Shown here: piece by piece, positions 4,274 through 36,001 of the stretch
Layout: the number at the start of each line of letters is the position of its first letter
Numbering within the stretch: position 1 is the stretch's first letter
IMG/VR virus record: IMGVR_UViG_3300044302_000228
Coordinates: 1 to 36,003 of that record
From: a virus
Reading direction: 5' to 3' (one strand)
Length of the DNA: 36,003 nt
Translations under genes and position numbers: made by a program
Notes under the pieces: model-generated
What the model was told of the DNA's origin: nothing
Database searches by the model: none
The model's input: the letters and a program-made list of their open reading frames with translations, nothing else

Positions 4274-4495
4274 ATGGGTGCATTTCAAAAGCCAAAGTAT
4301 AGAGAAACTGCTGCAGACAAAGCAGTTAGAGAAGATATTGAAAGAAGAAGGCAAGAAGAATTAAAAACTCAAGCTGAGCTTGAAGCAAAAGAAAAAAAAT
4401 TATCAAAAAGAAAAGCAAAAGGAATGGTTGGTATGCGATCATTATTCTCAAGAGCTGGTGGGAAAGGATTTTTTCATGAAGGTAAAGAAATCTAA
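4274..4495 (+). CDS. Small charged hypothetical protein
   Basis: 73 residues. The N-terminus MGAFQKPKYRETAADKAV is followed by a charged helix rich in E, R and K (residues about 18-50), then MRSLFSRAGGKGFF. Similar short proteins precede the portal gene in many marine podoviruses and are probably minor virion or assembly factors. The exact role is unknown. It starts two bases after the previous stop and overlaps the next gene by 20 bases. Confidence 0.65.
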   Translation: MGAFQKPKYRETAADKAVREDIERRRQEELKTQAELEAKEKKLSKRKAKGMVGMRSLFSRAGGKGFFHEGKEI

Positions 4496-4610
4496 AGAAA
4501 AAGAAAAAATAAAATTAAATAACTTAGGTTATCCAGTTAATGATCCTTATGGTTTAATAGCAGCTTTTGTAAATGTTATTCCACCTATGACAGTATTTGG
4601 TAAAAAATAA
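4476..4610 (+). CDS. Small hypothetical protein (44 aa)
   Basis: 44 residues starting MKVKKSKEKEK, then a conserved-looking NLGYPVNDPYGLIAAFVNVI segment and a PPMTVFGKK end. The frame is open from 4380, but the earlier part is a shadow of the previous gene. The ATG at 4476 gives a compact gene that ends TAATG onto the next start at 4610. The central hydrophobic patch is too short and proline-broken for a clear membrane helix. Function unknown. Confidence 0.6.
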   Translation: MKVKKSKEKEKIKLNNLGYPVNDPYGLIAAFVNVIPPMTVFGKK

Positions 4611-29905: not shown

Positions 29906-30112
29906 CTAAGTATTAAACTTTTTATTATAGCATCTAATACAATACCAATCACAGGATTCAGCTCTGTTTTGATTAGTAGGAATAAATGCTATAAGATTAT
30001 CTTGTATATATTTTTTATCACAAGAAGAACATTCATAAAAACTAGAACGGGATATCTTCTGTTGGATCTTCTGTTCTGCTGTTAGTTTGCGTTGAAACTT
30101 TAGAACTGCCAC
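29906..30112 (-). CDS. Small zinc-finger-like protein overlapping ssb
   Basis: 68 residues from GTG at 30112, chosen because GGAGG inside the ssb frame lies 5 bases upstream. A TTG at 30124 is the longer option. The C-terminal half has CSSC and CIRC pairs 28 residues apart, a possible zinc ribbon. The first 24 residues share DNA with the ssb tail in another frame. Last gene of the leftward operon. Role unknown. Confidence 0.55.
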   Translation of the reverse strand: MAVLKFQRKLTAEQKIQQKISRSSFYECSSCDKKYIQDNLIAFIPTNQNRAESCDWYCIRCYNKKFNT

Positions 30113-30449
30113 TTTGTCCTCCAATCATTTTAAGTACACCTTTATATCTAGGTATAATAATTTCGGTTACATATTTGGTTTCACCATTGTGGTCATACTG
30201 TCTAGTTTCTACTTGACCTTCTATGTATAACATAGTTCCTTTTTTAACATATTGCTCTATTGTTTTTGCAATGTTAGGATCCCAGCATACAAGTCTATGC
30301 CATTGTGTTTTTTCTTGCCACTCACCAGATTTATTTTTAAATCTTTCTGAAGTTGCTAATGAAAAACCAGCAAACTTTTCTTCTCTGGTAGATACTTTTA
30401 CTTCAGGATCGCTACCAACACGACCTAATAGGATTACTTTATTTATCAT
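30042..30449 (-). CDS. ssb: Single-stranded DNA-binding protein
   Basis: 135 residues. A bacterial-type OB fold at 1-105 (MINKVILLGRVGSDPEV, FSLATSER, WHRLVCW, KKGTMLYIEGQVETRQY) is followed by a flexible Ser/Thr linker and the acidic tip TEDIPF. That tip in host SSB docks partner enzymes. It binds exposed single strands in replication and recombination. AAGGAG stands 7 bases before the ATG. It overlaps its neighbours at both ends. The intact tip suggests that it can recruit host replication proteins. Confidence 0.95.
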   Translation of the reverse strand: MINKVILLGRVGSDPEVKVSTREEKFAGFSLATSERFKNKSGEWQEKTQWHRLVCWDPNIAKTIEQYVKKGTMLYIEGQVETRQYDHNGETKYVTEIIIPRYKGVLKMIGGQSGSSKVSTQTNSRTEDPTEDIPF

Positions 30450-30735
30450 CTAATACTCCTTCTATATTATTTAAAGCAGTGTAAGCACTTCTTACATGCC
30501 ATCTTATATCAGCTTTATTAATTGTTAAAGCTCTATCAGTATTTTCTTGGGTTTTTACATCACTGTCTACACCTTTTATAAAGGCAAATAACAAATGAAA
30601 TAAATCCATTTCACCTACTGTTTTATATTCTTTTTTACTATTAGAATAATATTCAGCTTCTATTGGTGGTATTAATTTAGTTGGTATTTTATGTCCTTGT
30701 AATACCAATGAATGTAATAAATCATTTACTGTCAT
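30439..30735 (-). CDS. Hypothetical protein upstream of ssb
   Basis: 98 residues, mixed helix/strand. It begins TVNDLLHSLVLQGHKIPTKL and contains GEMDLFHLLFAFIKGVD. ATAGGAGGA precedes the ATG at 30735. The 3' end overlaps the ssb start by 11 bases, so the two are coupled. No family was recognised. The place between a recombination protein and ssb suggests a DNA-metabolism helper. Confidence 0.6.
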   Translation of the reverse strand: MTVNDLLHSLVLQGHKIPTKLIPPIEAEYYSNSKKEYKTVGEMDLFHLLFAFIKGVDSDVKTQENTDRALTINKADIRWHVRSAYTALNNIEGVLDDK

Positions 30736-30743
30736 ACTTCCTC

Positions 30744-30908
30744 CTATATTTGATAGATGACTTCATCATCTTCTAGTTCTCTTGTAGTTACATTAAATTC
30801 TTTTAATATTTTATTTAATTCTTCTGCTGTTAAATCTTTATCACAAGAATAAATAACAAAAGATTTATCATAAACTATTGGATGTTTAAATTTATCTTTA
30901 TAATTCAT
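30744..30908 (-). CDS. Small acidic hypothetical protein (54 aa)
   Basis: 54 residues: NYKDKFKHPIVYDKSFVIYS, then a helical KDLTAEELNKILKEFN and an acidic end ELEDDEVIYQI. The strong site AAAAGGAG lies 5 bases before the ATG and 4 bases after the 3' arm of the pseudoknot at 30926-30985. Its translation is therefore a natural target of that structure. Function unknown. Confidence 0.65.
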   Translation of the reverse strand: MNYKDKFKHPIVYDKSFVIYSCDKDLTAEELNKILKEFNVTTRELEDDEVIYQI

Positions 30909-30925
30909 AGTTACTCCTTTTAGTT

Positions 30926-30985
30926 GCGTACAGGCAATGAGAACATCATGCCCAATAACTGACCTGTACGCTATCCCCAGTTATT
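30926..30985 (-). promoter_or_regulatory. H-type pseudoknot candidate in the leader before the ssb gene set
   Basis: Read on the minus strand, stem A pairs 30985-30978 (AATAACTG) with 30961-30954 (CAGTTATT). Stem B pairs 30971-30963 (GCGTACAGG) with 30934-30926 (CCTGTACGC). The arms alternate A-B-A-B, so the stems form a pseudoknot or are alternatives. Loop 3 holds a further small hairpin (30950-30946 with 30940-30935, one bulge). All 17 pairs are perfect. The structure fills the 84-bp gap, starts 7 bases after the Rad52-like stop and ends 4 bases before AAAAGGAG. It may be a translational operator, perhaps for SSB as in T4 gene 32, or a riboswitch. Confidence 0.6.
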
Positions 30986-30991
30986 AGGCGA

Positions 30992-31486
30992 CTATGTAGT
31001 TTTAGTAACTTTGGTTGGATCTGATTTGTTAGAATATTTTTCTTCTAACTTTTGAACATATTTTGAATCATCAAATTTGCCCATAAATATATCAGAACAA
31101 AGTCCTAAGTGACTGAACGCTTTTGTTAATGCATCTGTCATAGCTTTCTTTGGTGCTTCGTCATCTAATGCACCAGTTTTTCTATACATTTTTAAAGGTG
31201 AACAAACTGGCCCATAGAAATCCCAAAAACCTTCTTTGTTTTTATTAATTGCTACTGATACTTCAGCAGCTACAACAGCAGTTTGATTACTGTCCATACC
31301 ATGATAAGTATAATCAACTCGGTATGTCCAACCAGTACCTACTGGGCCAAACTGTTCTGTCATTTTCATAATCTGCCATTGTGGATCAATAGTAGTTATT
31401 TCACCAAAACCTTTATTGATGCGTTTAGTAAATCTAGGATCAGTTTCTTTTAAACTATCCCATACATTTCTTTTATCTGTTGTCAT
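30992..31486 (-). CDS. Rad52-like single-strand annealing protein
   Basis: 164 residues. The pattern GTGWTYRVDYTYHG, a beta-rich centre (AAEVSVAIN), then KKAMTDALTKAFSHLGLCSD and GKFDDSKYVQKLEEKY is that of phage Rad52/Sak-type annealing proteins. These form rings on single strands and anneal homologous ends made by an exonuclease. It lies just downstream of the YqaJ-type exonuclease, as such pairs usually do. GGAGGT precedes the ATG, and it overlaps the previous gene by 14 bases. Confidence 0.75.
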   Translation of the reverse strand: MTTDKRNVWDSLKETDPRFTKRINKGFGEITTIDPQWQIMKMTEQFGPVGTGWTYRVDYTYHGMDSNQTAVVAAEVSVAINKNKEGFWDFYGPVCSPLKMYRKTGALDDEAPKKAMTDALTKAFSHLGLCSDIFMGKFDDSKYVQKLEEKYSNKSDPTKVTKTT

Positions 31487-35425: not shown

Positions 35426-36000
35426 AATTCAGAAGATATAGTACCATCTTCATTATCTAAAGGTCTTTCAAGTTTACCATGGTTTTTATTATACCAATCT
35501 TTAGTTTCTTGAAGTTTCTTATTATGTATTGATGCTCTTTTCTCATCTGACATATTATCTTGTTTAACTGGATTTTTAGCTTGGTATGGTTGCCAAACTT
35601 CGCCAGTTTTTTCAAGGTAATAATCTAAATGAGCTTTAAGTCTATTAAACAGTATATCAAATTGAAATTCTCTAGCTTTTAACTGAGTTTCTAATTGACC
35701 TAATTGTACAGCGTCAATTTCCTGAAACTGTGCTTTAAGACCTAATGAAGTCAAGCTTGAAGAACTACCTTTTTTAGATTTGAAATAGTTAATTCTATTA
35801 GTAGTTGCTGTAAGCATTTTCTCTACAATAGCTAATCTATCAGCCATTTTGCTGATTGTGCTATTCATAGTAATTGAAAAATCAAGTAAACCAACATCAT
35901 AGCTTTCACCAGCTTTGTTGATATCCATGACCTCACAATTAATTTGATGATCATATTGTAGTTGTAATGCATTGATAGTATTTTGATATATAGTAGTCAT
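35407..36000 (-). CDS. First gene of the leftward operon, hypothetical
   Basis: 197 residues, helical, no recognised family. It starts TTIYQNTINALQLQYDHQIN and has a central coiled segment (KMADRLAIVEKMLTATTNRI), QLGQLETQLKAREFQFDILF and a polar C-terminal part with WQPYQAKNPVKQ. The start ATG is the last complete codon of the window. Its ribosome binding site lies across the junction, at 75-71. As the gene nearest the divergent control region it is probably expressed first after infection. Confidence 0.65.
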   Translation of the reverse strand: MTTIYQNTINALQLQYDHQINCEVMDINKAGESYDVGLLDFSITMNSTISKMADRLAIVEKMLTATTNRINYFKSKKGSSSSLTSLGLKAQFQEIDAVQLGQLETQLKAREFQFDILFNRLKAHLDYYLEKTGEVWQPYQAKNPVKQDNMSDEKRASIHNKKLQETKDWYNKNHGKLERPLDNEDGTISSELIPAIA

Positions 36001-36001
36001 T
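35938..36001. repeat. Right copy of 64-bp terminal direct repeat
   Basis: Identical to bases 1-64. The two bases after it (36002-36003) do not match the left continuation and may be end errors of the assembly. Confidence 0.95.

Follow-up and report, generated by a model that had tools for sequence, protein, structure and literature searches.

Messenger RNA pseudoknots that adjoin the ribosome-binding site are found in ribosomal-protein leaders, for example those of S15 and the alpha operon. In phages T4 and RB69, gene 32 carries a short pseudoknot that is bound by gp32, with UUAAA-rich RNA of more than 40 nt after it (PMC535899); this is the precedent for an autogenous operator of a single-strand DNA-binding protein (SSB; PMC535899, PMC3014915). 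Pseudoknots near ssb genes have also been described as the STAXI motif (RF01728), which occurs in tandem, two or three together, with frequent UUCG tetraloops (PMC2864571).

Here we describe a pseudoknot, hereinafter designated the knot, in IMG/VR record IMGVR_UViG_3300044302_000228; the whole stretch of 36,003 nt that was analysed is referred to as the window. The knot resembles the gene 32 operator of T4, T2 and RB69 in that it is a pseudoknot of the H type, placed in the leader of a transcription unit that encodes a phage SSB, located just past a DNA-metabolism gene and with an open, A+U-rich ribosome-binding site downstream. Unlike that operator, the knot has much longer stems. In addition, it lies 14–24 nt from the next AUG (19 of 20 versions) with no UUAAA repeats seen, compared with more than 40 nt in T4; the SSB is of the bacterial type (PF00436), not of the gp32 type; and up to three genes, two in the window, separate the knot from ssb. 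Because the UUAAA tract is missing and the SSB is bacterial-type, the knot is not a T4 gene 32 operator, though it may work alike. The initial annotation had proposed a control similar to that of gene 32. What stands of this proposal is that a pseudoknot heads the ssb gene set; a close copy of the T4 operator does not, and autorepression by SSB is suggested by analogy.

The knot shares with STAXI its location near ssb genes, but it is single, with one copy per record in nine records according to a covariance model that includes the stem B pairs, and it has no UUCG loops. RF01728 gave no gathering match in the window or 14 related loci, and its model gave no match in 8 records and likewise none in 14 control genomes. 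As in the ribosomal-protein leaders, the knot lies by a ribosome-binding site and a product of its cassette may bind it. Other than that, there is no ribosomal-protein gene here, no sequence relation and no sign of ribosome entrapment.

Results

Structure of the knot in the window

The knot is a compact H-type fold of 64 nt, in which two stems are interleaved in A-B-A-B order (Table 1). Stem A has 12 pairs, including one U.G, and stem B has 9 perfect pairs. The initial annotation had the order and the 9 pairs of stem B right but read stem A as 8 pairs. As a consequence, it placed the start of the knot 7 bases past the stop codon; the actual distance from the TAG stop of the upstream recombination gene (30994–30992) is 2 nt. 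The small hairpin that it had drawn in loop 3 is not conserved: L002 and L011 are without it, and other versions keep a UUCUUC-like sequence that forms no hairpin. The first AUG after the knot is at 30908, 17 nt from stem B, and the ribosome-binding site just downstream of the knot is open, not sequestered, in the predicted fold.

When the 36-kb window was replicated 200 times with a first-order Markov model, 24 replicas contained a like-sized knot somewhere (G.U allowed). The window sequence by itself is thus modest evidence, and the proof comes from covariation.

Table 1. Coordinates of the knot, its parts and the neighbouring genes in the window
Feature	Position	Strand	Basis or remark
Upstream gene P0001, single-strand-annealing (ERF/RAD52-like) recombination protein	30992..31486	-	phrog_7838, E 2e-38
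Knot, 5' to 3': GCCUAAUAACUG-GGGAUA-GCGUACAGG-U-CAGUUAUUGGGC-AUGAUGUUCUCAUUG-CCUGUACGC	30926..30989	-	
Stem A, 5' arm GCCUAAUAACUG	30978..30989	-	sequence and covariation
Loop 1, GGGAUA, 6 nt (relatives 4–8 nt)	30972..30977	-	structure-anchored alignment
Stem B, 5' arm GCGUACAGG	30963..30971	-	sequence and covariation
Loop 2, U, 1 nt (relatives 0–2 nt)	30962..30962	-	structure-anchored alignment
Stem A, 3' arm CAGUUAUUGGGC	30950..30961	-	sequence and covariation
Loop 3, AUGAUGUUCUCAUUG, 15 nt	30935..30949	-	alignment of relatives
Stem B, 3' arm CCUGUACGC	30926..30934	-	sequence and covariation
Shine-Dalgarno sequence AAGGAG	30914..30919	-	sequence; predicted unpaired
First gene past the knot, 54 aa, no assigned function	30744..30908	-	replaced by other genes in relatives
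98-aa gene, no assigned function; overlaps ssb start	30439..30735	-	reading frames
ssb, bacterial-type single-strand DNA-binding protein, ends DIPF	30042..30449	-	PF00436, E 6e-29
72-aa zinc-ribbon protein (CxxC..CxxC); overlaps ssb end	29906..30124	-	family adjoins most knots

Covariation of the two stems

IMG/VR loci that encode proteins related to the upstream one were collected, and the sequence following the stop codon of that gene was then read. The selection of most loci thus rested on protein similarity and not on pairing. Within the clade of the window protein, the examined loci with a gap after the upstream gene carry an intact knot, and the knot-less ones have no gap.

Seventeen distinct knot sequences from IMG/VR phages were aligned with MAFFT on sequence only, blind to structure. 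In this alignment, 98.3% of 357 cells are standard pairs, compared with 83.0% after shuffling. Changes on both sides are found in 16 of 23 pairs (stem A, 9/12; stem B, 7/11), and the covariation score is 0.523 versus 0.239 (0/500 shuffles). When one arm is slid by 1 to 3 columns, pairing falls to 28–39%. In a structure-anchored alignment, 358 of 358 pairs are standard and 18 of 23 positions covary; because this set was built to pair, only the MAFFT alignment serves as a test. The true pseudoknot claimed in the initial annotation is borne out by this compensatory change in both helices.

The stems are long in all, about 20–23 pairs in total per knot. Wobbles across the knot versions comprise many G.U and no A.C, which points to the transcript of the knot's own strand as the functional molecule. 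Loop 2 measures 0–2 nt in every version, as a stacked pseudoknot requires and two independent hairpins would not; such a loop may leave room for coaxial stacking of stems A and B. From the comparison of sequences, it is near certain that the knot is a genuine, conserved structured RNA, selected to form both stems. A search of Rfam, which the initial annotation had suggested, returned no family that matches the knot: at gathering and low thresholds, there was nothing relevant in the window or 14 knot-bearing or related loci. The knot would represent a new family of RNA that Rfam does not contain.

Conserved unpaired parts and spacing

Loop 3 keeps a UUCUUC-like pyrimidine core in most versions, and GUC precedes stem A in most versions. 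In L042 and L044, the stop codon is shifted inside stem A, so that GUC is coding there, and GUC is still kept. Pairing of loop 3 with the Shine-Dalgarno sequence was considered and rejected, with native duplexes at −6.0 kcal/mol and swapped ones at −6.3 kcal/mol, no better than chance.

The distance from the upstream stop to the knot ranges from −6 to +3 nt. The distance from the knot to the next AUG is 14–18 nt in 16 of 20 versions, 22–24 nt in three and 84 nt in one, and this spacing is held across several unrelated first genes. After the knot of L042, at about 1948–2031, an extra 84-nt structured-looking stretch (AUGUAGC..GCUACAU) precedes the next gene.

Genes on the two sides of the knot

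The family of the upstream protein, phrog_7838, carries the name exonuclease, and a relative of the protein is annotated as a single strand-annealing protein in HTVC035P. The upstream gene shares its operon with a RecE-like exonuclease. On the other side, ssb is the third gene after the knot in the window, in agreement with the initial annotation, which had placed it two genes later.

In all 30 loci with at least 1.5 kb of sequence, ssb lies downstream of the knot, and the knot always lies between the upstream recombination gene and the ssb-containing cassette, whatever the first gene. Specifically, ssb is directly behind the knot in L043, L045–L049 and L064; elsewhere, one to three genes intervene, and these overlap or abut one another. 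The covariance model that finds single knots detected none in the searched records of knot-less or second-class relatives or in four cultured phages. A degenerate pattern was used to look for knots behind any upstream gene; among the matches listed, none has the expected knot geometry.

On the protein tree, the presence of the knot requires three changes. Five knot-less rows fall within the knot clade (L101, L126, L145, L147 and L150). They have lost the gap, and the start of the following gene falls on the upstream stop codon, as in TAATGG. A similar MAKKK-type gene stands behind the knot in L073, with its own Shine-Dalgarno sequence. In more distant knot-less relatives, ssb often starts within a few nucleotides of the upstream stop. 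Since gap-less relatives couple the next gene to the upstream stop in this way, the knot seems to take the place of translational coupling.

A zinc-ribbon gene adjoins most knots

A zinc-ribbon gene is found near 28 of 30 knots of the class described above (class I) and near 13 of 13 knots of a second class (class II), compared with 8 of 27 knot-less loci; the loci share ancestry, and these counts are not independent. The two versions of the protein have CxxCxxxY...CxxCxN in common. The 25-kb knot-bearing record L064 gave no match to the zinc-ribbon protein of the window, in a search that also missed the diverged class II copies. The gene is absent from L081, and some loci carry it without a knot. 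The usual zinc-ribbon site after ssb in L081 (3400–3550) holds other sequence with possible local structure.

A second knot class and other elements

Class II is a larger knot at the same operon junction, directly behind the stop of the diverged erf-like gene, in the diverged clade L210–L224 (branch length 1.5). It has stacked P1 and P1b with an internal loop, a loop 2 of 0–1 nt and a stem B of 10–13 pairs. Its loop 1 of 12–18 nt contains GUUCUUC in most versions, whereas class I has the motif in loop 3. All 213 of 213 pairs are standard in nine sequences with clearly different stems, which were structure-anchored by hand. The next AUG is about 9–12 nt past stem B in many versions, further off in L211 and L212, and mostly has no evident Shine-Dalgarno sequence before it. 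The first gene behind the class II knot encodes a small zinc ribbon.

In L161 (about 987–1037) and L162 (about 765–815), two near-identical copies of a putative knot-like element lie 10 nt before the start of a related zinc-ribbon gene. The upstream gene at these loci is a different one, of about 267 aa, and ssb is several genes away.

A third conserved element was noticed in pelagiphages, two cultured phages included: L087 (Lederberg EXVC029P) at about 4311–4380, L088 (HTVC035P) at about 4525–4600, and L461–L540. Its form is AAAGGG..AGCAGGGUGGGG-U6-8-CCCUUUC..CCCCACCUUGCU-A-rich, with a long hairpin, a possible AAAG/CUUU knot, and U and A tracts. The element follows a gene that encodes a protein with an SSB-like acidic tail at its end.

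Phages that carry the knot

The 36-kb window has a perfect direct terminal repeat of 64 nt (1–64 and 35938–36001), and the record is thus likely to be a complete genome, assembled as a circle. Its gene content is podovirus-like, with tail, connector and internal virion proteins, and its connector shares 57% identity with the connector of Pelagibacter phage EXVC031P Hodr. We infer a Pelagibacter-type host for this phage. The knot carriers are marine phages of the pelagiphage type, related to the window phage. EXVC031P Hodr and MEP301, cultured relatives by the capsid-connector gene, gave no knot at the threshold used. A scan of genome contigs for the knot gave four weak matches in MAGs and no host.

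Discussion

With moderate confidence, we take the knot to be an intercistronic mRNA element that sets the translation of the ssb-containing cassette behind it. Specifically, ribosomes that reach the end of the recombination gene would be kept by the knot from continuing into the gene behind it, and the ssb cassette, with its overlapping or abutting genes, would thereby be translated as a separate unit. A protein of the cassette, for which SSB and the small zinc-ribbon protein are candidates, would bind the knot and lower initiation on accumulating. Several points speak against translational control. With a variable first gene downstream, no one protein stands out as the target; knot-less relatives do without the knot, their ssb being coupled directly to the upstream gene; compact genomes place any intergenic structure close to both genes, and the spacing may therefore not matter; and most of the observations are also compatible with a role in RNA stability alone.

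After translational control, a passive barrier ranks next, a somewhat unlikely possibility in which the knot would bind nothing and would block exoribonucleases or ribosome run-through at the operon junction. The upstream gene and the spacing are constant while the downstream gene varies, and the stems are long, as such an element might be; but a plain hairpin would suffice as a barrier, and most versions retain the UUCUUC-like loop motif and the GUC 5' flank, which pairing would not require; this suggests recognition. If the knot is recognised, the partner could be the phage SSB, which would nucleate on the knot, spread over the ribosome-binding site like T4 gp32 and shut its own cassette. 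This is rather doubtful. It agrees with the presence of ssb in 30/30 knot loci and its place directly behind the knot in L043, L045–L049 and L064, with a single-stranded, pyrimidine-rich loop 3, with an open, A-rich ribosome-binding site, and with the precedent in T4 and RB69 (PMC535899, PMC3014915). However, up to three genes separate the knot from ssb elsewhere, merely 14–24 nt without visible UUAAA repeats lie between the knot and the AUG, the SSB is bacterial-type rather than gp32, and in L161 and L162 the knot-like element precedes a zinc-ribbon gene, ssb being several genes distant. Those two loci, together with the class II knots that the zinc-ribbon gene follows, the motif shared by both versions of the protein and the excess of the gene near knots, speak for the CxxC..CxxC cassette protein of 50–95 aa as the one that would bind the knot and regulate the cassette, including itself. 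Even so, this is unlikely: L064 gave no match, albeit in a search that missed diverged copies, L081 is without the gene, the gene is present without a knot at some loci, and the counts carry shared ancestry. The SSB and zinc-ribbon proposals are narrower forms of translational control, and their confidences overlap with it.

The remaining explanations are far less probable. The initial annotation had also considered a new metabolite riboswitch of the pseudoknot type, and a compact fold of the H type, with the next start codon 17 nt away, would suit one, but it is highly improbable given that Rfam has no match in the window or the 14 loci, that class I is found at one site in one phage group and with no other gene, that it is followed by first genes of several unrelated types, that the predicted fold leaves the ribosome-binding site free, and that no conserved ligand-pocket-like core is seen. 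A strong pseudoknot just past a stop codon recalls retroviral readthrough signals, and this likeness is what a stimulator of frameshifting or stop readthrough for the upstream gene has in its favour. The downstream gene is in frame 0, 1 or 2 with respect to the upstream one, following no pattern, extensions of the upstream frame past the stop end within 2–31 codons with no shared product, and no conserved open frame crosses the knot. Recoding is thus excluded as a shared function, and we consider it barely credible.

More tentatively than translational control as such, we suggest that the knot may represent another phage system, the second of its kind and of independent origin, whereby a product of the cassette, the bacterial-type SSB or its zinc-ribbon neighbour, autoregulates translation via an mRNA pseudoknot, in marine pelagiphage-type phages in which this operon junction carries at least two structural classes. 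As what would be a new RNA family in marine phages from many metagenomes, the knot covaries strongly enough for mutants to be designed directly from its covariation. Relatives with the knot, with a different knot or with direct coupling make the balance between recombinase and SSB levels testable by simple reporters.
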